NCBI GenBank assembly: GCA_017307865.1
Contig: JAFKGE010000046.1
Location: forward strand, 1 to 64,000
DNA length: 64,000 bases
Reading direction: 5' to 3'
Source of the DNA: Burkholderiales bacterium
GTDB taxonomy: Bacteria; Pseudomonadota; Gammaproteobacteria; Burkholderiales; Burkholderiaceae_C
Made by a program: the position numbers and the translations under genes. The notes under the pieces are model-generated. The model worked only from the letters and a program-made list of their open reading frames with translations. It did not search any database and was not told the origin of the DNA. Shown here in pieces: positions 6,812-18,205 of the stretch (its first letter is position 1; each line of letters starts with the position of its first letter).

Positions 6812-7093
6812 TCAGGCGTGGCGTTTGACCCAGTTGCGCAACACGTCATTGACGCGGGTTTGCCAGCCTGTCCCGGTCGCGCGCAGGCGCTGCACCGTGT
6901 CAATGTCCAAACGCATGGTCACTTGAATTTTGGTGCCACTGCCCAGCGGGCGGCCCCGGCGTGCCTGTGGCTTGACCGCCTCCCATTCGGCATCGGTGAA
7001 CGGGCGTGCATCGGGGTCGGCCTGGGCGGTGGCGGTAATAGCTGCATCCTCCGCCGATGTGGGCAGGATGGTTCCGGGTTTAAGTTTCGGCAT
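6812..7093 (-). CDS. brnA: BrnA antitoxin, element copy
   Basis: A 93-residue BrnA-family antitoxin. The N-terminal half (ADPDARPFTDAEWEAVKPQA) is the part that in this family wraps the toxin. The C-terminal half is a ribbon-helix-helix domain: strand IQVTMRLDIDTVQRLRATG, then GWQTRVNDVLRNWVKRHA as the second helix. In known BrnTA systems the dimeric antitoxin represses its own promoter together with BrnT. The start lies 14 bp inside brnT, the usual coupling. The copy at 9122-9403 differs at about 13 of 93 residues. A fused-in toxin remnant follows the stop. Confidence 0.88.
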   Translation of the reverse strand: MPKLKPGTILPTSAEDAAITATAQADPDARPFTDAEWEAVKPQARRGRPLGSGTKIQVTMRLDIDTVQRLRATGTGWQTRVNDVLRNWVKRHA

Positions 7094-7358
7094 AGCGTGT
7101 GACCTCGCGGCGGTTGGCTTTCCTCAAGCTGATGATGCGGCGCTCCGTGGGCTTGCCCTCGGGGCGGTCGGTGAACACCACGGCCATGATGCGCGGCCCG
7201 ATGTATCCCAGCGCCGCCATGCGCGGCTCGCCATAGTCCCGGCGGTGGTCAGGCCATATCAAGGCGCTTTCCCACTCGAAGCCCGCAGCATCGGCAAGCG
7301 ACACACCATGTTTTGCCCGGTTGGCTTCGTCCTTGTCCGGGTCAAACGTGATGTTCAT
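7080..7358 (-). CDS. brnT: BrnT ribonuclease toxin, element copy
   Basis: A 92-residue BrnT-family toxin, a RelE-fold ribonuclease that arrests translation. The family pattern is complete: ITFDPDKDEANRAKHGVSLA at the start (F-x-W/D-x-x-K-x-x-x-N-x-x-K-H-G-V), then a R-x-A-x-G/L-Y-type strand and RIISLRKANRREVTRYAE at the end, holding the Arg and Tyr residues of the active surface. No disruption is seen, so toxin activity is plausible. The copy at 9390-9668 differs at 6 of 92 residues. It is transcribed away from the integrase, whose last codon lies in its promoter region. Confidence 0.9.
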   Translation of the reverse strand: MNITFDPDKDEANRAKHGVSLADAAGFEWESALIWPDHRRDYGEPRMAALGYIGPRIMAVVFTDRPEGKPTERRIISLRKANRREVTRYAET

Positions 7359-7368
7359 TGGTTTATTG

Positions 7369-7415
7369 TAGTTGCGTTTATTCGTTTTGCAAGGATTTTT
7401 GTCGTTGCGTTATTG
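7369..7415 (-). promoter_or_regulatory. brnTA promoter region with paired direct repeats
   Basis: TAGTTGCGTTTATT (7369-7382) and TCGTTGCGTTATTG (7402-7415) share GTTGCGTT and lie 33 bp apart, just upstream of the brnT ATG. The second brnTA copy has the same pair at the same spacing, although the DNA between them differs. This conservation suggests a BrnA operator. Confidence 0.55.
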
Positions 7416-8741
7416 GCATGCTACGTTGCCCACGGCCCGCAACTTGCCCGGCTCCTTGGCGGCGTCGAACGTCACGCCGGCCTGCTCCAAAATCCACGCC
7501 TCGAATTTCTCGTGGTGCAGGCGCAGCAAATCCAGCGGGCGCACGGTGTAGTGCTTCTCAGCGGTGGCGCTGGGCTTGTGGCCTTGTATCTGCGCAATCA
7601 CGCCCACCGGCAGTTCGAGCCATTCGCTCAGGCTCTTGAACGAGCGGCGCAGGCCATGCAGCGTCAGGCCCTGCACGCCGGCCACGGCGCAGGCCTTGCC
7701 GTGCTGGCGCTGCGGGTAGCTCAGGGGCTTGTCGGTGTTCGAGAACACGTAGCGACCACGCCCGGGCAGGCCGGCCAGCAGGTGATGCACATAGGGCGTG
7801 AGGGGAATCACGCGCTCGCCCTCCACTTTGTCGCGAATCGTCAGGCCACGCCACTGCACGTTCAAATCTTCCCAGCGCAAGCCCAGCAGCTCGCCGGGGC
7901 GTGCGCCAGTCAGCAGCAGGGTTTGCAGATAGGCGGATATGCCGGCGTTGCCGATGGCGCGCACAGCGGCGAACCAGACCGGCAATTGCTCACGCAGCAG
8001 GGCGTCGGACTTGACGCCGGCCTTGCCCAGTGCCTCGCGGGCGCGGCGGCTCTTGGCGGGGTTTTGCGCGGGCACGATGGCCTTGAAGTCGGGATGCTCC
8101 GCGCACCAGCTGAGGAAAGCGCGCAGCAGGCGCCAGGCCAGCCGGGCGGACGTGGGGCGGTGCTGGCCTTCGCGCTGCGCCCATGCCTCAATGGTGGCGG
8201 TGTCCAAGTCCTTCAGCGGCAGCGCCAGCAGCGGGAACAGCGGCCCGGCCACCGTGACGCCACGGCCACGGGTGCCGCTGAAGGGCTCACCACTGGCGCG
8301 GGCCAATACCGCATGGTCGCGTGCGTGACGCTCGCCCCAGTGCGGGGTGCGGTCGACGATGTAGGCGGCCCATGCTTCGTCCATCCTCAACGCATCGCGC
8401 GCGGCCTGGGCGGCTTGCGCGACGTGTGTCTCGGCTTGCACCAGGGCGGCGGCGATGGCTTCGCGCTTGGGCGTGCGCGGGTCGGTGCCTTCGTCAATCA
8501 GGCGTTGCAGTTCGCGTGCCTTCGTCCGGGCTTGCTCGATAGTCCAGGCGCTGGGGTTGCCGATAGTTGCCCGTACCGTCTTTCCCGCGTGCCGGCCTTG
8601 GAAGATGTAGGCGGGCTTGCCGGCCGGCGTTGACCTCAGTCCCAACCCTGGGACGGCGGTGTCCCACAAAAACGCCTGCTTCTTGTCGGGTGGGCAAACG
8701 AAGTCGCGCACCCTGCCGGCCGTGAATTGAACCTTTGCCAT
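7410..8741 (-). CDS. int: Tyrosine site-specific integrase
   Basis: A 443-residue phage-type integrase. It starts with an Arm-DNA-binding domain (residues about 1-90: FLWDTAVPGLGLRSTPAGKP, RATIGNPSAWTIEQAR). A core-binding domain follows (about 115-225), then the catalytic domain with Arg281 (TGARPGELLGLRW), His362-x-x-Arg365 (LHGLRRSF), His388 (QGHK) and nucleophile Tyr398 (KHYTV). All catalytic residues are present, so it should be active. The ATG at 8741 lies 175 bp from the tRNA-Lys fragment at 8917-8966. That is the normal position for an integrase using the tRNA 3' end as target. Its 3' end overlaps the brnT promoter. Confidence 0.92.
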   Translation of the reverse strand: MAKVQFTAGRVRDFVCPPDKKQAFLWDTAVPGLGLRSTPAGKPAYIFQGRHAGKTVRATIGNPSAWTIEQARTKARELQRLIDEGTDPRTPKREAIAAALVQAETHVAQAAQAARDALRMDEAWAAYIVDRTPHWGERHARDHAVLARASGEPFSGTRGRGVTVAGPLFPLLALPLKDLDTATIEAWAQREGQHRPTSARLAWRLLRAFLSWCAEHPDFKAIVPAQNPAKSRRAREALGKAGVKSDALLREQLPVWFAAVRAIGNAGISAYLQTLLLTGARPGELLGLRWEDLNVQWRGLTIRDKVEGERVIPLTPYVHHLLAGLPGRGRYVFSNTDKPLSYPQRQHGKACAVAGVQGLTLHGLRRSFKSLSEWLELPVGVIAQIQGHKPSATAEKHYTVRPLDLLRLHHEKFEAWILEQAGVTFDAAKEPGKLRAVGNVACQ

Positions 8742-8975: not shown

Positions 8976-9013
8976 AAAAACCGTGCTGCGATGGTTCGCA
9001 GCACGGTTTTTTT
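8976..9013 (+). terminator. Rho-independent terminator of the former tRNA-Lys unit
   Basis: AACCGTGCTGCGA pairs with TCGCAGCACGGTT across a short TGGT loop, followed by seven T residues. It lies 10 bases after the tRNA CCA, so it is the original tRNA terminator and marks host chromosome. Confidence 0.85.
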
Positions 9014-9121
9014 CTTTGCAGGCCGATGTGAGGCGATGGCCCGAATCGGGCCCGCTTCTTGAGCCCGCCCCTCCCGATGCGTCCCGCCCGCCGTCCTATC
9101 GGGCTGGCTGCAGCAAAAAGC

Positions 9122-9403
9122 TCAGGCGTGGCGCTTCACCCAGTTGCGCAGCACCTCATTGGCGCGCGTCTGCCAGCCTGCTCCGGTTGCGCGCAGGCGC
9201 TGCACCGTGTCGATGTCCAGGCGTATGGTCACCTGCACCTTGCTGCCGCTGCCCAGACGGCGGCCTCGGCGTGCCTGCGGCTTGATTTCTTCCCATTGCG
9301 CGTCGGTGAACGGCCGTGCATCGGGGTCTGCCTGAGCGGCGGCGGTAATGGCGGCATCCTCCACGGCGGTCGGCAGGATGGTTCCGGGTTTAAGTTTCGG
9401 CAT
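9122..9403 (-). CDS. brnA: BrnA antitoxin, second copy
   Basis: A 93-residue BrnA protein with the same layout as the element copy: toxin-binding N-terminal half (PDARPFTDAQWEEIKPQA) and C-terminal ribbon-helix-helix (VQVTIRLDIDTVQRLRATG, GWQTRANEVLRNWVKRHA). About 80 of 93 residues match. Most changes lie in the N-terminal half and in the strand of the DNA-binding domain (IQVTM to VQVTI). This could change partner or operator preference; cross-neutralisation is possible but cannot be read from sequence. It lies outside the tRNA scar and overlaps its brnT by 14 bp. Confidence 0.88.
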   Translation of the reverse strand: MPKLKPGTILPTAVEDAAITAAAQADPDARPFTDAQWEEIKPQARRGRRLGSGSKVQVTIRLDIDTVQRLRATGAGWQTRANEVLRNWVKRHA

Positions 9404-9668
9404 AGCGGGTCACCTCGCGGCGGTTGGCCTTCCTCAAGCTGATGATGCGGCGCTCCGTGGGTTTGCCTGCGGGGCGGTCGGTAAACACCACGGCCACGAT
9501 GCGAAGTCCGATGTATCCCAGTGCCGCCATGCGCGGCTCGCCGTAATCGCGGCGCCGGTCGGGCCATATCAACGCGGTTTCCCATTCGAAGGCCGCCGCA
9601 TCGGCAAGCGATACACCGTGTTTGGCCCGGTTGGCTTCATCCTTGTCCGGGTCGAACGTGATGTTCAT
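9390..9668 (-). CDS. brnT: BrnT ribonuclease toxin, second copy
   Basis: A 92-residue BrnT toxin with 86 of 92 residues identical to the copy at 7080-7358. All family motifs are kept: FDPDKDEANRAKHGVSLADA, PRMAALGYIG, RRIISLRKANRREVTRY. The DNA differs at scattered positions, so the two copies are not a recent perfect duplication. It sits between the tRNA terminator and the end of pbpC, in host chromosome. With the element copy it frames the integrase and attachment scar as 2.3-kb-spaced direct repeats. Confidence 0.9.
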   Translation of the reverse strand: MNITFDPDKDEANRAKHGVSLADAAAFEWETALIWPDRRRDYGEPRMAALGYIGLRIVAVVFTDRPAGKPTERRIISLRKANRREVTRYAET

Positions 9669-9679
9669 GGGATTTATTG

Positions 9680-9727
9680 TAGTTGCGTTTATTTTCTTCG
9701 CAATGAATTTTTGTCGTTGCGTTATTG
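9680..9727 (-). promoter_or_regulatory. Second brnTA promoter region with paired repeats
   Basis: TAGTTGCGTTTATT (9680-9693) and TCGTTGCGTTATTG (9714-9727) repeat the arrangement seen before the first brnTA copy, in the short gap between brnT and the end of pbpC. Confidence 0.55.
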
Positions 9728-9747
9728 ATGCGGATCGCCGTCAGCCA

Positions 9748-12033
9748 TCATTCGCTTCCGGCAGCCTGCCTGGCCGCGCGCACCGGCTTGACCGAAGCCC
9801 CGCGCACCTCGATGCGCCGCTCGTCCTGCACCGCGCCGCGGGCGTCGCGCAGCTGCAGCACGTGCCGCCCGGGCCAGGGCAGCCACTGGGCTTGCGGGCC
9901 GCGGCCGACTTCGCGCGCGCCGATCCACCAGCGCAGCGCCTGCGGGTCGGCCGCGCCGGGGTCGGCCTGCAGCAGCAGGCGCTGGTTGGCGGGCGGGATG
10001 TCGGGGTCGAGCGCCAGGATGGCGCCGTCCCGCGGGCGGGTGATGCGCGCCGGCACGCGATCGGCGGCGTCGGCCGGTTTCAAGTCAAATGGGCCTGCAG
10101 CCGGCTCTGGATCTGCGCGAGCAGCTTCTGAATCGATAGTAAACACGGCCTGCTCGGTGCCGGCGATGAACCACTCGGGGCGCGCCGCCTCCAGGCCGTC
10201 GCCGAAGCGCACGCGGGTGTGGACCAGCCCGGGCGGCGGCGCGGGCGGGCGCGAGGGCGTGTGCTGGTGCAGCGCGCGCATCAGGCGGGCCCACACCGGC
10301 GCGGCGCCGCTGGTGCCGCTGACGTCCCACATCGGGCCGCCGGCGGCGTTGCCCACCCACACGCCGACGGTGTAGCGCTGCGAATAGCCCACGGCCCAGT
10401 TGTCGCGCATGTCCTTGCTGGTGCCGGTCTTGACGGCGCTCCAGAAGCGCGTGGCCAGGATGGAGTCGAGCCCGAAGGTGAGGGCGCGGGCGTTGCGGTC
10501 GGCCAGGATGTCGGAGGCGATGAAGGCGGCGCGCGGGTCGAGGGCCTGGTGGCAGCCCTCACCCCGGCCCTCTCCCGCAGGCGGGAGAGGGAGTGAATGG
10601 GCAGCGCCTGTGGCTTGGCCCACATCGCACCAGCGCCCGCCGTTGGCCAGCGCGCGGTAGGCGTTGGTCAGCTGCAGCAGGGTGACTTCGGCGCTGCCCA
10701 GCGCCAGGCTGTCGCCGTAGTAGTCGCCGCCCTGCGGCAGCGCGATGCCCAGCAGCCCCAGTTGCCGGTGAAAGGCGCGCGGCGACACCATGACGATGGT
10801 GCGCACCGCGGGCACGTTGAGCGAGGAGGCCAGCGCGCTGCGCACCGACACCCAACCCTTGAAGCTGAGGTCGTAGTTCTGCGGGATGTACAGGCCGCTG
10901 GCGGTTTGCAAATGCGCGGGCGAGTCGTGCAGCAGCGAGGCGGCCGTCAGGCGCCGCTCGGCGATGGCCTGGGCGTACAGCAGGGGCTTGAGCGTGCTGC
11001 CGGGCTGGCGCGGCGCGGTGACGGCGTCGACCTCGCCCGCGCGGCTGAGTTCGCCCGTGGAGCCGACCCAGGCCAGCACCTCGCCGCTGGCGTTGTCCAG
11101 CACCACAACCGCGCCGTCTTCGACGTGGCGCCCGCGCAGTTCCTTGATGTGCTGCTGCAGGCTTTGCAGCGCGATGCGCTGCAGCCGGGCGTCGAGGGTG
11201 CTGCGCAGGGCGACCGGCGCCGGCTGGCCCGCGGGCAGGGCGGCCAGCAGCCGGCGCGCGTAGTGCGGGGCGATGCCGTCCTGCGCCGGCCAGGCGCGGC
11301 GCGCCAGCGCCAGATCGGCCTGCATGTCCAGCGCCACGCAGTCGGTGGCCTGGCCGGGCCCGCGCATGGCCTTGAGCACACCGCAGGCGCGCTGCGCCAC
11401 GCGCCCGGGGCTGGCGTTGGGCGCGCGCACCAGGGCGGCGGTGAGCGCCGCCTCGCTCTCGGTCAGGCCGTGCGGCGCCTTGGCGAACAGCGTGCGCGCC
11501 AGCGCGTCGATGCCCACCAGCTCGCCGCGCAAGGGCACCAGGTTGAGGTAGGCCTCCAGGATCTGGTCCTTGCGCCAGCTCGCCTCCAGCCGGGTGGCCA
11601 TCAGCGCCTGGCCGATCTTCTGGCGCACGCTGCGCCCGCCCTGGCCCAGGCGCAGGTCTTCGTCCAGCAGACCGGCCAGCTGCATGGTCAGCGTGCTGGC
11701 GCCGCGCGTGCGGGTGTTCCACAAATTGGCCCAGGCGGCGCTGGTCACGGCGCGCCAGTCCACCCCGCTGTGCTCGTAGAAGCGCTGGTCCTCCGATAGC
11801 ACCAGCGCGTGCTGCAGCGCCGGCGAGATGTCGGCCAGCGCCACCCAGGCGCCGCGGCGCACCTGGGCGTCGGTGCGCACGCGCTCGATCGGCTCGCCGT
11901 GGCGGTCCAGGATCAGCGTCTCCGAGAGCCGGTGCTCGGCGCGCACCGCCTCGAAGCTTTGCGCGTGCGCATGGCCCATGAAAGCCAGGACGCAGAGGAC
12001 GCAAAAAAAACGCAGAGAACGCAAAAGAGACAT
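9748..12033 (-). CDS. pbpC: Penicillin-binding protein 1C (bifunctional glycosyltransferase/transpeptidase)
   Basis: PBP1C polymerises glycan strands in the periplasm and carries a transpeptidase domain. Visible in order: a short hydrophobic anchor (residues 7-23), a GT51 domain with Glu81 in VLSEDQRFYEHSGVDW and RGASTLTMQLAGLL, a transpeptidase domain with PGSTLKPLLYA (nucleophile Ser), SSLN and KTGTSKDMRDNWAVGYS, and a C-terminal BiPBP_C-like domain. ATG 12033 is chosen because it gives the anchor; the anchor itself is encoded by a dispersed repeat (11983-12152). Two other repeats lie in frame: one near residue 485 (10556-10594) and one near residue 635 (10113-10146). It follows the alpha-2-macroglobulin gene, the classic yfhM-pbpC pairing for cell-wall defence and repair. 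Confidence 0.92.
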   Translation of the reverse strand: MSLLRSLRFFCVLCVLAFMGHAHAQSFEAVRAEHRLSETLILDRHGEPIERVRTDAQVRRGAWVALADISPALQHALVLSEDQRFYEHSGVDWRAVTSAAWANLWNTRTRGASTLTMQLAGLLDEDLRLGQGGRSVRQKIGQALMATRLEASWRKDQILEAYLNLVPLRGELVGIDALARTLFAKAPHGLTESEAALTAALVRAPNASPGRVAQRACGVLKAMRGPGQATDCVALDMQADLALARRAWPAQDGIAPHYARRLLAALPAGQPAPVALRSTLDARLQRIALQSLQQHIKELRGRHVEDGAVVVLDNASGEVLAWVGSTGELSRAGEVDAVTAPRQPGSTLKPLLYAQAIAERRLTAASLLHDSPAHLQTASGLYIPQNYDLSFKGWVSVRSALASSLNVPAVRTIVMVSPRAFHRQLGLLGIALPQGGDYYGDSLALGSAEVTLLQLTNAYRALANGGRWCDVGQATGAAHSLPLPPAGEGRGEGCHQALDPRAAFIASDILADRNARALTFGLDSILATRFWSAVKTGTSKDMRDNWAVGYSQRYTVGVWVGNAAGGPMWDVSGTSGAAPVWARLMRALHQHTPSRPPAPPPGLVHTRVRFGDGLEAARPEWFIAGTEQAVFTIDSEAARADPEPAAGPFDLKPADAADRVPARITRPRDGAILALDPDIPPANQRLLLQADPGAADPQALRWWIGAREVGRGPQAQWLPWPGRHVLQLRDARGAVQDERRIEVRGASVKPVRAARQAAGSE
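10113..10146 (-). repeat. Dispersed AGCTGCTCGCGCA-type repeat inside pbpC
   Basis: The minus strand reads ATTCAGAAGCTGCTCGCGCA and is translated as DSEAARAD. The same motif, translated the same way (KSEAARAG), lies inside the acyl-CoA dehydrogenase gene at 62041-62070. Confidence 0.65.
10556..10594. repeat. GC-rich CTCTCCCGC palindromic repeat inside pbpC
   Basis: CCCTCACCCCGGCCCTCTCC followed by CGCAGGCGGGAGAGGGAG forms a hairpin. In pbpC it is translated as SLPLPPAGEGRGEG between two parts of the transpeptidase domain, where related proteins have a short loop. Relatives lie at 55464-55495 and 61023-61061. Confidence 0.7.
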
Positions 12034-12152
12034 CAATTCAATTGGGGTAAAACGGGAGTGACTGGGAGCACGGTGCATCAAACGCACGAGCCCCCTTTCA
12101 TGAATTTTTTGCGTCCTTTGCGAGTCCTTTGCGTCCTCTGCGTTCGGCTGTT
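11983..12152. repeat. CGCAGAGG-ended inverted-repeat element overlapping the pbpC start
   Basis: The left end AGCCAGGACGCAGAGGACGC and right end GCGTCCTCTGCGTTCGGCTG are inverted relatives, each followed inward by repeated GCGTCC/GGACGC units. The right 49 bases nearly match the right end of the element at 63808-63980. It begins six bases after the stop of the alpha-2-macroglobulin gene and runs through the first 17 codons of pbpC. Confidence 0.75.
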
Positions 12153-12157
12153 GGCAG

Positions 12158-15100
12158 TTACGGCTGCTTGACCTCGATCGCCGCATTGGGCGCTTCGCCG
12201 AACATCTCCGGCGCGTACAACGCCTCGACGCGGCTGGGCGGCATCTGAAAGTGGCCAGCGTTGTTCAGCCGCAGGGTGTATTCGACCTTGATGGTGCCCT
12301 TGGGCAGGTAGTCGTAATAGCTGCGGAAGGCCTCGAAGCTGCGCTCTTCGAACGCCGGCCAGCCCTGGCCTTCGCGCTTTTCGCCCTGGGTGGCGATGAT
12401 GGAGTCGCGCCCCAGGCCGCTGCCCAGGATGGTGGCGCCGGCCGGGATCGGGTCGGTCACGGCCACCCAGGTCATGGGCGCGGCGGCGGTGACTTCCAGC
12501 GTCACGCGCACGATGTCGCCGCGGGTGTAGGCGCCATCGGTACCCGGACTGGCATTCGGGCCGGTGGCGTCGACCAGCGCCACGCTCTTGCGGATCTGGT
12601 AGCCCGCCGTGCGCGGCGCCAGCAGCGGCACCGCCGCCAGCGACTGCAGCGTCAGCCAGGGCTTGCCCGTGCCCTGGTGCGCCACCGTCAGCTCGCTGGT
12701 GCCGCCGGCAGGCCAGGGCAGGCTCAAGGTGTTGCCCACCAGCTGGCCGGGCAAGGCCGGCGTGCCCAGGCCGCGGCCCTGCTCGATGGTCTGGCCGGCC
12801 TTGAGCGCGTGGACGTTGCGCCAGTCCACTTGCTCGCTGTCGGTGCCCAGGCTGGCGCGGGTGATGCCGGCCACCGGCGTGGCTTCGTGCGTGCGCGAGA
12901 ACTGGCGCAGCGCCAGCGAACCCCACAGGTTGGCGGTGGTGGTGCGCCAGGCGCCGTTGTTCTGCCGGCCGATGAAGCCCGTCACCAGGCGGCCCACGTC
13001 GCCGCGCCAGGCCGCATTGTCCATCACGGTCAGCAGCAGGCGCGCGGCGTTGACGTCGCCGCCGGCCATCAGCCACCACCACGCGTCGTTGGACTCGGTG
13101 CTGAAGACCAGACGCGTGCCCTGCACCGACAGGCGCGCGCGCAGCACCTGCATGGCCTCGGCCAGCTTGCGCGGCTGCTCGGGAATGGCCTTGACGCGGC
13201 GCAGCACGTTCACCCAGTCGATGACGGCGCTGGTGGGCCACTGGTTGGGCGTCAGCGTGACGCTGTCCAGCATGGCGGCGTTGGCCGCGCCGTAGCGCGA
13301 CAGCGCCTCGATGGCGGCCAGCTTGCGCACGTCCAGGTCGGCGCGCGGCGACCAGTGCCTGCGCTCGATGCGGCCGGCCACGAAGTCGGCGAGGCCCTTG
13401 ATCATCGCCTGGCGCGGCGCCTCGGGCAGGCGCCAGGCGGCATCCAGCCGCGCGGCCTCGTCGGTGGCGGCCAGCAGCCAAGCGGTCAGCGTGTCGCTGC
13501 CGCCGTGGGTGTCGCCGGCGCGCGGCGGAAAGTAGCTGGCCAGGCCGTCGCCGTCCAGGTAGGCCGGCAGCTGGGCCACGGTGCGCTGCCAGGCTTGCTC
13601 GTCGCCCATGCCGATGGCCTTGCTGGTCTGCTGCTCCAGGCAGGAATAGGGGTAGCGCGCCAGCCAGTCGCGGATGGCGGGCAGGCCGCCGGCCAGGCTG
13701 GGCTGCAGGGCCAGCTGCAGGCCGCCGCGCTTGGGCCCGCTGGCGGGCAGGGCGTCGGGCGGCGGCGCCACGGGCACGGTGAAGGCGCCGTCCAGCTGCA
13801 CCAGCGTGGCCTGTTGCACGGCGAGCGGCACGGCCGGCACCACGCGCTGGCTGAGCTTGAGCGCGTCGCGCGCGCTGCCGTTCACATCGCGCGCCTGCAC
13901 CACCCACAGCAGGGCCTCGGCGCGGGTGGCGGCCAGCTCGGGCGGGGCAGTGACGTCCCACTGCAGCTCGCGCGCCTCGCCGGCGGGTACGTCCACCGTC
14001 TGGGGCTTGAGCTCCAGCAGGGTGGCGCGCGGCGTCAGCTCGACCTTCATCGGTTGCGCCGTGGTGTTGCGCACGGTGAGCAGGGCGCTGAAGCGGTCGC
14101 CGGCGCGCACCAGCGGCGGCAGGCCGCTGATGATCTGCAGGTCCTGCGTGGTGCGCACGCTGGTCTGGCCGGTGCCGAACAGGCCCAGGCCCAGGTCGGC
14201 CACGGCGACGATCTGGAAGGTGGAGAGCGCGTCGTTCAGCGGCACCTCGATGTGCGCCTGGCCCTGCGCGTCGAGCGCGATGCGCGGCTGCCACAGCAGC
14301 AGGGTGTCGAGCAACTCGCGCGTGGGGTGGGCGCTGCCGCCGTCGCCGCCGGCCGGCACCGCCTTGCGGCCGTAGTGGCGCCGGCCGACGATTTCCATTT
14401 GCGCGGTGGCCGTCTGCACGCCCCAGGCGCGGCGCGTGAGCATGGCGTCCAGCAGGTCCCAGCTGCGGTTGGGCATCAGCTCCAGCAGTGCCTGGTCGAC
14501 CGCGGCCAGCGCCACCTCGGCACCGGCGGCGGGGCTGCCGTCGGGGCGGCGAGCGGTGATCGTCACCTGGGCCTTGCCGCGCACCGGGTAGCTGGCCTGG
14601 TCGGCCTTGACCTCGACGGCCAGCTGGTGCCCGGCCGCGCCCAGCTTGAGCTCGGCCATGCCCAGGCGGAACGCGGGCTTGCTCAAATCGACCAGCGCGG
14701 TGGGCGGCACGTGGTCCTTGCTGTCGACCCAGAAGGCCTGCCACCAGGCGCGCGGCGCCTTGTAGCCCCAGGTGAAGAAGCTGTACCACGGCACCTCGTG
14801 CACGCGCCCGCGCAGCGCCAGCACGCTCACGTACACGTTGGGGCCCCAGTCGGGCTCGATCTTGAGCGCCACCGTGGGGTTCTTGCCCGTCAGCTCCAGC
14901 ACCTCGGTGTGCAGGATGCCTTCGCGCTCGACCGCCACCAGGGCGGTGGCGTGGCGAAAGGGCATGCGCACCTGCAGCGTGGCCGTGTCGCCCGGCCGAT
15001 AGGTCTTGCGCTCGGCCAGCACGTCCATGCGGTCGTCGTTGCGCCCGCCGAACCACAACTCGCCCTGGCCGCTGACCCACACCGAGGCGGCGGCGAGCGC

Positions 15101-18100
15101 GCTGCGGCCGTGCTCGTCGCGCGCGCTGGCCACCAGCTCGATCTCGCCGGGCTGCGTCAACTTGACGTTGCAGGCCAGCACCCCGTGCGGGCCGCTGGTG
15201 CCGGTGCAGACGGTGCCCAGGTCCTTGGTCTCGGTGTGGCTGTCGTAGGTGTAGAAGCCCCCCACCATGCGCTTGCGGCTGGTGAGCGTGGTGCGGGCGA
15301 TGGCGCGCACGTCCAGCGGCACGCCGGCCTTGGGCTTGCCCTGCAGGTCGAGCGCCAGCACCTGTACCGGCGCGTCCTGGCGGGCGGCGGCCCAGCCCTC
15401 GGCCTTGATGCCGACGACGACGGCGGCCGGCCACAGCGTGCGCGTGGCGCGCAGGGTCTGCAACTCGCCGTTGGGGTCGGCATAGGTCGCTTCCAGCACC
15501 AGCTGGCGCGGCGCGGGCGCCGGCGCGATGGGTTCGACCACCACCTGGCCCAGGCCTTCGCGGCCCAGTGTGGCGGGCAGCTTGTCGGCCACCAGGTGGG
15601 TGTCGCTGTCGGGGGCGGCCTGGCCTTCGCCCTCGGCGGGGCGGGGCGGCTCGAAGCTGAAGGCGCCATAGTCGTCATAGGAGGGCGTGAAGCCGCGCGT
15701 CAGCGCCGACACGCGCACCGGCAGGTTGGCGGCCGCGCCGCCGCCCACGTAGCCGACCTGCACCTGCACCGGCACGCGGGTGGCGGCCACCAGCGGCGCG
15801 TCGTCGGCCGGGCCCACGCGGCCCTGCATGAGCGGCAGGCGAAATTCCTCGACGCGAAAACTGCCGCTGTCGAAGGACGGGCCGTCGTCGCCCGCGCCGC
15901 GCAGGCTGATGGCGTAGACGCCCAGCCGCGCCGCCTGCGGAATGGCGAACGTGCTTTCGGCGCTGCGCCCGCCAGTGGCGGTGGTGCGCCAGGCCAGCGG
16001 CTGGGTGTATTCCTGCCCGCTGCCCAGGTGGGTGATGACCAGGCGCGTCGGGTCCTGCTTGGGCAGGCCGAAGCCGGCCTGGGTCTCGGTGCGGATCAGG
16101 TGCTTCATCGACAGCGTTTCGCCCGCGCGCAGCAGGCTGCGGTCCAGCACCGTGTGGGCGCGCGTGTCGGGCGTGGGCTCGGCGCTGGTGGGCACGTTGA
16201 AGCGCCAGGGCTCGATGCCGCGCTGCCACGACGACCAGGTGAAGGCCATGTCGGCCACGCCGTGGTTCTGCGCCCGGGCGCTGACGAAATACGCCTGCTG
16301 GAAGTCGCCCAGCCAGTCGCCCTCGCGCGCGCAGCTGGGCGGGTTGGGCGACACGGCCTTGAAGTGCGCCAGGCCCTGCGCGTCGGTGCTGGCCTGGGCC
16401 ACCGGCTTGCCGTGGCAGTCGCTGACCTGCACCGTGGCGCCGGCCACCGGCCGGCCCTGGTCCAGCGTGGTGACCCAGGCCAGCGCGTTCTCGCGCCCCA
16501 GCTTGAAGTGCACGGCCAGGTTGGTCACCAGCACGGCGGTGCGCACCACCATGGCGCGCTGCGCGCCGTAGGCCGGATCGAGCAGCGACTGGCCCAGCAA
16601 GGCGGAGCTGACTTCGAGCACGTGAAAGCCCGGCGCCAGCGGCACGCCGATGACCTCGAACGGGCGCTCGCCGGCCTTGGGTGCATCGGGCAGCGCGATG
16701 CTCTGCACGCCCGCCTGGCCGGCCAGCAGCGACACGGTGCGCGCCTCCACGCTGTCCTTGGTGTTGTCGCCCACGGGCGGCGGCAGCGGGCCCTTGACGT
16801 CGCGCGCCGCCTGTGCCCGCGGCACGAGGCGCTGCTCGTAGCGCTGCACCCGGGTGAACCAGGCGACGATGTCGGCGTCGGTCCTGGGCTGCAGGTCGTC
16901 CAGCTTCAGGTCCTTGGCCTGCAGAGCGGGCTCGACACGGCGCAGCGTGAGCGGCATCAGCGCCGGGCCGTCGGGGCCTTCGGCAAAGCGCTCGACGATG
17001 CCGAAGGGCGCGGCGGCGAACTTGGCCAGCGGCGGCAGCGGGCCGGTGGCGATCGCGAGCGGAAAGCTGTCGGCGTTGGCCAGCGGCCGGCCGCTGGCGT
17101 CCTTCAGCTCGGCCGGCAGGCTGAGCGTGAGCGTGGCGCGCTCGGGAAAGGGGCCGTCGAAGCGCAGGCGATCGAGCAGATCGTCGCCCGCGCCGCCCTC
17201 TGCCTCCTTGGGCGCGAACTCGGCCTTGTCCGTGCGCAGCCGCACGCCGCCCAGCAGCTTGCGTGCCACCGGCGCGCTGAACGTCAGCTCGATCGGGCGG
17301 ATCGGCATGCAGGCGGCCTGGGCGTTTTCGCGCTCGCAGCTGGTGCTGGCGGTGAAGGGTTCGCGCACCGTGAAGGCAAAGCGGCGCTCCACCCGGTTGG
17401 CGACGCCGCTGGGCGTGGCCACGCCGGCGCCGTAGACCAGCTGCACGCGCGTGGCCGGCGTCAGGCGCCGGTTGCAGGCCAGGGTCAGATAACGCTGCGG
17501 CGCCGCCTGCGCGGCCTTGTCCAGGTCCAGCGCCTTCAGGATGGCGGCGCGCGGCTCGCCCTCGATCAGCCGCACCGGCACGCGCTCGCCCAGGCCGTCG
17601 GCCACGCAGGCGATGTGCGCCTGCGCGCTCGCGGCCGTGGCCGCGCCGTTCAGGCGCAGCACGAAGGTCTGCTCCTCCTCGATCGGCTGGTAGCTCTCGG
17701 GCCAGATGCGCTGCACGAACGGCCCGCCGGTATTGAATCGATAGCTGCTCGCGCCCGTCAATGCTGCGCCGGAAGGCGATTTGAACCCTGGAACGACGCT
17801 CAACTCGCAGCGCACGCCGGGCGGCAGGTCGGCGGCGAAGTCGTACACCCACTGGCGCGCGCCGACCCAGTGGCCCTGGCCGCGCGCCGCGCTGGCGTCG
17901 TCGCAGCGCACGGCGAGCGGCGCGGCGGCCTGCGCATCGCCGAAGCGCATCGCGTCGTGGTCGAACTTGACCGACACCTGGCGCACGCGCGCCACCTCGC
18001 CCTGGGGGCTGAGGGCGCTGATGCCGAGCGCCTGCGCCTGGATGGACGCCAGGCCGAGCAGCAGCGCCAGGGCGGCGCGCAGGTCCGGGCGGGGCGCTCG

Positions 18101-18130
18101 CGCCGTGCGTGCGGGTGAGAGGAAGGACAT
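12158..18130 (-). CDS. Alpha-2-macroglobulin family protease trap with thioester
   Basis: A periplasmic protein of about 1990 residues, matching the length of the bacterial YfhM/MG2-type family that traps foreign proteases. A signal peptide (residues 8-34, ALALLLGLASIQAQALG) lacks a lipobox Cys, unlike E. coli YfhM, so it is probably soluble. The thioester motif CLEQ is intact at Cys1497-Gln1500, inside a terpenoid-toroid-like domain (CLEQQTSKAIGMGDEQAW). Many beta-rich macroglobulin repeats precede it, with an MG2-like segment (LVTNLAVHFKLGRENALAW). ATG 18130 was chosen over the ATG 13 codons upstream because it gives a normal signal peptide. It is followed by pbpC, the usual partner. Confidence 0.9.
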   Translation of the reverse strand: MSFLSPARTARAPRPDLRAALALLLGLASIQAQALGISALSPQGEVARVRQVSVKFDHDAMRFGDAQAAAPLAVRCDDASAARGQGHWVGARQWVYDFAADLPPGVRCELSVVPGFKSPSGAALTGASSYRFNTGGPFVQRIWPESYQPIEEEQTFVLRLNGAATAASAQAHIACVADGLGERVPVRLIEGEPRAAILKALDLDKAAQAAPQRYLTLACNRRLTPATRVQLVYGAGVATPSGVANRVERRFAFTVREPFTASTSCERENAQAACMPIRPIELTFSAPVARKLLGGVRLRTDKAEFAPKEAEGGAGDDLLDRLRFDGPFPERATLTLSLPAELKDASGRPLANADSFPLAIATGPLPPLAKFAAAPFGIVERFAEGPDGPALMPLTLRRVEPALQAKDLKLDDLQPRTDADIVAWFTRVQRYEQRLVPRAQAARDVKGPLPPPVGDNTKDSVEARTVSLLAGQAGVQSIALPDAPKAGERPFEVIGVPLAPGFHVLEVSSALLGQSLLDPAYGAQRAMVVRTAVLVTNLAVHFKLGRENALAWVTTLDQGRPVAGATVQVSDCHGKPVAQASTDAQGLAHFKAVSPNPPSCAREGDWLGDFQQAYFVSARAQNHGVADMAFTWSSWQRGIEPWRFNVPTSAEPTPDTRAHTVLDRSLLRAGETLSMKHLIRTETQAGFGLPKQDPTRLVITHLGSGQEYTQPLAWRTTATGGRSAESTFAIPQAARLGVYAISLRGAGDDGPSFDSGSFRVEEFRLPLMQGRVGPADDAPLVAATRVPVQVQVGYVGGGAAANLPVRVSALTRGFTPSYDDYGAFSFEPPRPAEGEGQAAPDSDTHLVADKLPATLGREGLGQVVVEPIAPAPAPRQLVLEATYADPNGELQTLRATRTLWPAAVVVGIKAEGWAAARQDAPVQVLALDLQGKPKAGVPLDVRAIARTTLTSRKRMVGGFYTYDSHTETKDLGTVCTGTSGPHGVLACNVKLTQPGEIELVASARDEHGRSALAAASVWVSGQGELWFGGRNDDRMDVLAERKTYRPGDTATLQVRMPFRHATALVAVEREGILHTEVLELTGKNPTVALKIEPDWGPNVYVSVLALRGRVHEVPWYSFFTWGYKAPRAWWQAFWVDSKDHVPPTALVDLSKPAFRLGMAELKLGAAGHQLAVEVKADQASYPVRGKAQVTITARRPDGSPAAGAEVALAAVDQALLELMPNRSWDLLDAMLTRRAWGVQTATAQMEIVGRRHYGRKAVPAGGDGGSAHPTRELLDTLLLWQPRIALDAQGQAHIEVPLNDALSTFQIVAVADLGLGLFGTGQTSVRTTQDLQIISGLPPLVRAGDRFSALLTVRNTTAQPMKVELTPRATLLELKPQTVDVPAGEARELQWDVTAPPELAATRAEALLWVVQARDVNGSARDALKLSQRVVPAVPLAVQQATLVQLDGAFTVPVAPPPDALPASGPKRGGLQLALQPSLAGGLPAIRDWLARYPYSCLEQQTSKAIGMGDEQAWQRTVAQLPAYLDGDGLASYFPPRAGDTHGGSDTLTAWLLAATDEAARLDAAWRLPEAPRQAMIKGLADFVAGRIERRHWSPRADLDVRKLAAIEALSRYGAANAAMLDSVTLTPNQWPTSAVIDWVNVLRRVKAIPEQPRKLAEAMQVLRARLSVQGTRLVFSTESNDAWWWLMAGGDVNAARLLLTVMDNAAWRGDVGRLVTGFIGRQNNGAWRTTTANLWGSLALRQFSRTHEATPVAGITRASLGTDSEQVDWRNVHALKAGQTIEQGRGLGTPALPGQLVGNTLSLPWPAGGTSELTVAHQGTGKPWLTLQSLAAVPLLAPRTAGYQIRKSVALVDATGPNASPGTDGAYTRGDIVRVTLEVTAAAPMTWVAVTDPIPAGATILGSGLGRDSIIATQGEKREGQGWPAFEERSFEAFRSYYDYLPKGTIKVEYTLRLNNAGHFQMPPSRVEALYAPEMFGEAPNAAIEVKQP

Positions 18131-18205
18131 GCGGGGTTCCCGGGCCGGTTGAGCGCCCGAGGGTAGCAAACCCCGCAGGGTGGCCGATGCCGCCGGCCGG
18201 CCGCG

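Follow-up and report, generated by a model that had tools for sequence, protein, structure and literature searches.

A dispersed inverted repeat at the start of pbpC codes for the hydrophobic core of a predicted signal peptide in two sister species

Export signals built from repeat DNA have been proposed before. The case that appears closest to the one described here is the Yersinia RU-2 / YPAL element, which, in the passages devoted to it by Delihas 2007 (PMC2759123) and in a review (PMC2229807), is described as making part of the predicted signal peptide of YPO1552. Palindromic elements of 100-150 bp found in Rickettsia provide a second point of reference, being described, in secondary accounts of Ogata et al. 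2000 (PMC10969869, PMC2229807), as lying in frame in conserved protein genes. Bacterial MITEs, as outlined in part of the same review (PMC2229807), provide a third; they are small, have inverted termini and stable predicted hairpins, and are found mostly beside genes.

Here, a stretch of 64,000 nucleotides from a Burkholderiales bacterium (contig JAFKGE010000046.1; "the window") illustrates how a member of a dispersed repeat family has come to lie across the start of pbpC, the gene for penicillin-binding protein 1C (PBP1C). The genome of the window (G000) and a sister genome that carries the same arrangement (G018) both belong to the Ottowia group and fall in one genus by tool placement. In all likelihood, an ancestral repeat insertion replaced the start of the PBP1C signal peptide together with its hydrophobic core, with predicted export via Sec and cleavage near AHA-Q. 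The signal looks like a clean, fresh example of a known phenomenon, and no description of this repeat family or of this pbpC was found in the open-licence literature among the matches listed. What the locus provides is a phylogenetically placed, comparative case in which a conserved cell-wall enzyme owes its predicted targeting sequence to repeat DNA, and in which the donor family remains common in the G000 genome. In this gene, whose orthologs show the usual sequence at this place, the older idea of repeats as possible donors of signal peptides can be tested.

As with YPO1552, the repeat in pbpC codes for an N-terminal hydrophobic segment, that segment belongs to a dispersed family (47 elements, and 162 unit matches versus 12 for a control), and the signals of homologs are unrelated to the repeat, which is missing from 99 of 101 pbpC loci. 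The two cases differ in repeat family and host. They differ too in that pbpC is a conserved enzyme gene compared over 101 loci, and in that its c-region looks native and its two-unit arm gives both the n- and h-regions; moreover, the YPO1552 signal was predicted by SignalP, whereas that of pbpC is predicted by hydropathy and the AxA rule only. The likeness to the Rickettsia elements, which is one of published description, lies in a palindromic repeat in frame in a conserved gene, but the pbpC insert is N-terminal and would replace a targeting signal. Terminal inverted repeats, small size, a stable predicted hairpin and a position mostly beside genes are common to MITEs and the present family, but the cores of this family are unique to each copy, and the arms show no coevolution; the hairpin z is -8.0 for the pbpC copy.

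The features of the locus on which the argument turns are the following.

9748..12033, minus strand: pbpC, penicillin-binding protein 1C (TIGR02073, 604.5 bits against a cut-off of 494.2), with Transgly, Transpeptidase and BiPBP_C domains
12158..18169, minus strand: bacterial alpha-2-macroglobulin gene, upstream of pbpC, with the start codon as given by the ORF tool
11979..12152, minus strand: whole inverted-repeat element, two arms and a unique core, agreeing in its units, its inverted arms and its terminus AACAGCCGAA with the other copies detected
12104..12152, minus strand: distal arm, adjoining the alpha-2-macroglobulin stop codon, recognized by element anatomy
11979..12030, minus strand: pbpC-proximal arm, two units 20 nt apart, coding for about codons 2-19
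11977..12009, minus strand: hydrophobic core FFCVLCVLAFM, codons 9-19, from hydropathy and translation
11959..12033, minus strand: predicted signal peptide, codons 1-25, MSLLRSLRFFCVLCVLAFMGHAHAQ, if the start is ATG 12033, by motif rule only

The stop codon of the alpha-2-macroglobulin gene (12160-12158) is followed by pbpC, whose codon 1 is an ATG at 12033-12031 and whose codon 19 is a further ATG at 11979-11977. Counted from ATG 12033, the product has 761 amino acids, and its match to the transglycosylase domain (Transgly) begins at residue 47. Between and across these two genes sits the element, 174 bp long at about 11979-12152. A first-pass annotation of this DNA had placed it at 11983-12152; the element is indeed there, with its extent now corrected and with an inner core of about 70 nt that has no match to other copies. 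The boundary on the pbpC side would fall at 11979, judging from a variant terminus. In this family each arm consists of two CGCAGAGGACGCAAA-type units whose starts are 20 nt apart, and arms typically end AACAGCCGAA / TTCGGCTGTT. At pbpC, four units (11991-12005, 12011-12025, 12108-12122 and 12128-12142) form two inverted arms.

Translated on the minus strand, the repeat at the pbpC start gives SLLRSLRFFCVLCVLAFMG, and its pbpC-proximal end codes for MSLLRSLRFFCVLCVLAFM, with no other hydrophobic stretch ahead of the transglycosylase domain. Both statements had been made in the first-pass annotation and both hold. The repeat across the start is borne out by coordinates, units and abundance relative to a control, and all 11-residue windows with a mean Kyte-Doolittle value above 1.0 between codons -16 and 60 lie within codons 0-24. 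The abundance of the unit in the G000 genome is beyond chance: the 15-mer unit with up to two mismatches has 162 matches versus 12 for the reversed control, and the 35-nt double unit with up to three mismatches has 82 versus 0. Cleavage of the window PBP1C is predicted just before or after Q25.

Comparison with orthologs shows how restricted this arrangement is. The 111 rows compared represent 101 distinct loci, 10 rows being the same contigs under two ids; L025 and L027, which have no pbpC start, were dropped. In a search region that begins 300 nt before mature residue 26 and ends 60 nt past it, the window and G018 are the sole loci with the repeat at the pbpC N-terminus. The other 99 loci lack it and have different N-termini, and no relative with the same segment and no repeat, the case that the first-pass annotation had named as telling against it, was seen among them. 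Eight genus-mates with at least 19 double-unit matches elsewhere (G003, G008, G010, G014, G017, G019, G021 and G024) have no repeat at pbpC; in G017, a weak unit with three mismatches close to this position was judged a chance match, in which Leu and Arg codons mimic the unit. The PBP1C proteins of the window and G018 are 81% identical, and in a pbpC tree of 24 rows the two genomes pair with support 99/99 (the place of G003 in that tree, on an extreme branch and with its frame disturbed, is meaningless). As they form one supported clade, a single event would be the simplest reading of the repeat at both loci.

The peptide itself reads MSLLRSLRFFCVLCVLAFM in the window and MFFSRPLRFFCVLCVLFFI in G018, with the stretch LRFFCVLCVL the same in both and GHAHAQ next in both. 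Ahead of the mature part, maximal hydropathy over 12 residues reaches 2.73 in G000 and 3.03 in G018; across the 111 rows it averages 2.35 (sd 0.32). From the upstream stop to mature residue 26 there are only 175-199 nt in both carriers, and short gaps are found in other genera too; L122 and L093, the two relatives inspected, have a convergent ORF (222 or 209 aa) separating pbpC from the alpha-2-macroglobulin gene.

In the scheme that we favor, a copy from an old, by now mostly immobile family would have settled between pbpC and the alpha-2-macroglobulin gene before the window species and G018 diverged, its DNA taking the place of the start and hydrophobic core of the signal peptide of PBP1C. 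In the outward reading, the inner unit would provide the basic n-region LRSLR and the outer unit, which falls in another frame because the next unit starts 20 nt on, the hydrophobic h-region FFCVLCVLAF. These would join a native-looking c-region, GHAHAQ, in a hybrid predicted to route PBP1C via Sec and to be cleaved near AHA-Q. That c-region is probably the surviving native part, since AxA-Q occurs at the same residue in four relatives (G007, G011, G016 and G020). The anatomy of the element, the lack of the repeat in the other orthologs compared, its presence in two sister species and purifying selection on pbpC are shown directly, whereas export, cleavage, the precise start codon and which came first, insertion or loss, are inferred.

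Whether such a segment is cleaved or retained bears directly on how it should be named. PBP1C elsewhere in bacteria is usually described as membrane-anchored, and the strong hydrophobicity of the repeat-derived segment would also fit an uncleaved signal anchor that stays as the transmembrane anchor of the protein. This is nevertheless unlikely, as AHA-Q directly follows the core and an AxA-like motif, by a loose motif rule only, is present in 110 of the 111 ortholog rows (101 distinct loci). Because of these motifs, "cleavable signal peptide with repeat-derived n- and h-regions" is probably the better term; the first-pass annotation was right that the repeat supplies a hydrophobic N-terminal segment, and it is the word "anchor" that fits poorly. 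At the other extreme, an ordinary signal peptide whose DNA merely resembles the repeat is scarcely credible. The single-unit chance match of G017, with its three mismatches, does lie at nearly the same place, but coincidence is already contradicted by a pair of inverted arms holding four units, with the spacing and terminus of the family, in two species.

A different concern is that another start is used, or that the gene is decaying, so that the repeat-encoded peptide has no role; we regard this as very unlikely. No Shine-Dalgarno match accompanies ATG 12033 (-0.1 kcal/mol), and a better site in G000 favors starts further upstream.

12076..12081, minus strand: alternative upstream start codons TTG -15 and ATG -14, in the element core, sharing a Shine-Dalgarno-like site (-10.7 kcal/mol); not conserved in G018

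The best Shine-Dalgarno match in G018 (-5.7 kcal/mol) serves ATGs at codons 0 and 1. An upstream start keeps the repeat-derived core, however, and the hydrophobic region would be repeat-derived whichever of the candidates is used (ATG 12033, TTG -15, ATG -14, or codons 0 and 1 of G018). With a start below the arm, the protein would lose its hydrophobic segment altogether, and a common start just below the arm is excluded because G018 has ATA at the position of the codon-19 ATG of the window. A second repeat in frame within pbpC could be taken as a sign of decay, but the domains are intact and dN/dS between the window and G018 is about 0.39 (dN 0.136, dS 0.351); the gene is under purifying selection.

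Such selection on the gene is distinct from selection on the arm that codes for the proposed signal peptide. Between the window and G018, identity is 0.89 for the coding arm, 0.93 for the non-coding arm of the pbpC element and 0.85 for the mean of all arms (26 pairs). As the coding arm lies within the non-coding range, these values show no selection specific to it, and its conservation was rejected as proof of selection, non-coding arms being kept equally well. A core length difference divisible by three is likewise uninformative as a sign of translation through the core, 11 of 26 pairs having one. The predicted transcript hairpin of the element (-83.4 kcal/mol, z -8.0) takes in the signal-peptide codons and may affect pbpC expression.

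The wider family can be followed across the genus and beyond. In G000, 47 elements were detected, a count that takes in single arms and remnants; most copies are about 90-190 bp with inverted arms, and a few are single arms or have arms far apart. Among the matches listed for G018, 67 elements were found by script in 62 stretches drawn from 100 of 122 pattern matches, at least one of them, at L284, being a chance match. The double unit (up to three mismatches) is present in 16 of 149 genomes searched, the control pattern giving 0 in every genome. Twelve of the 29 genomes of the genus have it, ten of these with at least 19 matches, as do four genomes beyond the genus, including G086 with 115. 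At least 33 of the 47 G000 elements have a G018 counterpart with both flanks matching (43 candidate pairs checked), so that the family appears to be mostly old and inherited in place. From the flank-matched pairs, 27 were hand-listed and 26 passed a length filter, one of them, the remnant L236, lowering the mean; the six left out are partial elements or mostly show large length differences. Mean identity over the 26 pairs is 0.85 for arms versus 0.71 for cores.

Arm-arm coevolution, sought as a sign of a selected hairpin, was not found, the arms of an element matching each other slightly less well than shuffled ones. In G000 (36 elements) the values are 0.805 for own arms and 0.822 for shuffled arms, with 4963 of 5000 shuffles reaching the own-arm value or more; in G018 (50 elements) they are 0.792 and 0.802, with 4745 of 5000. 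An Rfam scan of 9000-15000 gave a single irrelevant match, below the gathering score. At the same sites in G000 and G018 arms outdo cores in conservation, and the unit period of 20 nt is about two turns of DNA; conserved arms with this period would suit a candidate protein-binding site.

Read outward, the 211 arms of G000 and G018 among the matches listed share a consensus in which LLRPLR leads, by way of two variable hydrophobic residues, to CVLCV, the two motifs following each other because the units are 20 nt apart. The charge ahead of the core is net +2 in 179 of these arms, and 73% contain at least one 10-residue stretch with a hydropathy of at least 2.0, versus 34% of base-shuffled arms. 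The strand itself accounts for part of the hydrophobicity, as its next frame reaches 2.0 in 52% of arms versus 73% in the signal-peptide frame. The residue after CVLCV is Arg in 190 of 211 arms and Leu in six, two of which are the pbpC copies of the window and G018. It is conceivable, if quite improbable, that the family as a whole serves as a reserve of latent export signals, in which a change from Arg to Leu beside a native AxA makes an arm a working signal peptide; repeats would then be recruited repeatedly and in a predictable way, and not just once. No other recruited genes were seen among 212 arms of G000 and G018 (codon-GC filter, then by eye) or in a partial inspection by eye of 30 of 94 matches from nine further genomes; the gene-like candidates examined had their own Met below the arm or were chance matches such as L284.

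In four genomes, repeat arms about 430-440 nt apart lie just upstream of one type of gene, which from its start resembles trpG, with position and frame recurring.

L240:983-1460, L269:1700-2180, near L334:1525-1970, near L340:1528-1975: arms upstream of the trpG-like gene

Other repeats are found in the window as well. At 10556-10603 a second, unrelated palindromic repeat, CCCTCTCCCGCAGGCGGGAGAGGG, lies in frame in pbpC of both carriers, where it codes for ...SLPLPPAGEGRGEG... ahead of the KTGTS box; it is absent from ten other aligned orthologs. Two BrnT/BrnA toxin-antitoxin pairs (6812-7358 and 9122-9668), with an identity of 87% over 547 bp, lie on either side of a phage-type integrase gene at 7410-8741, and this placement suggests an island whose insertion duplicated or targeted a BrnT/BrnA pair.
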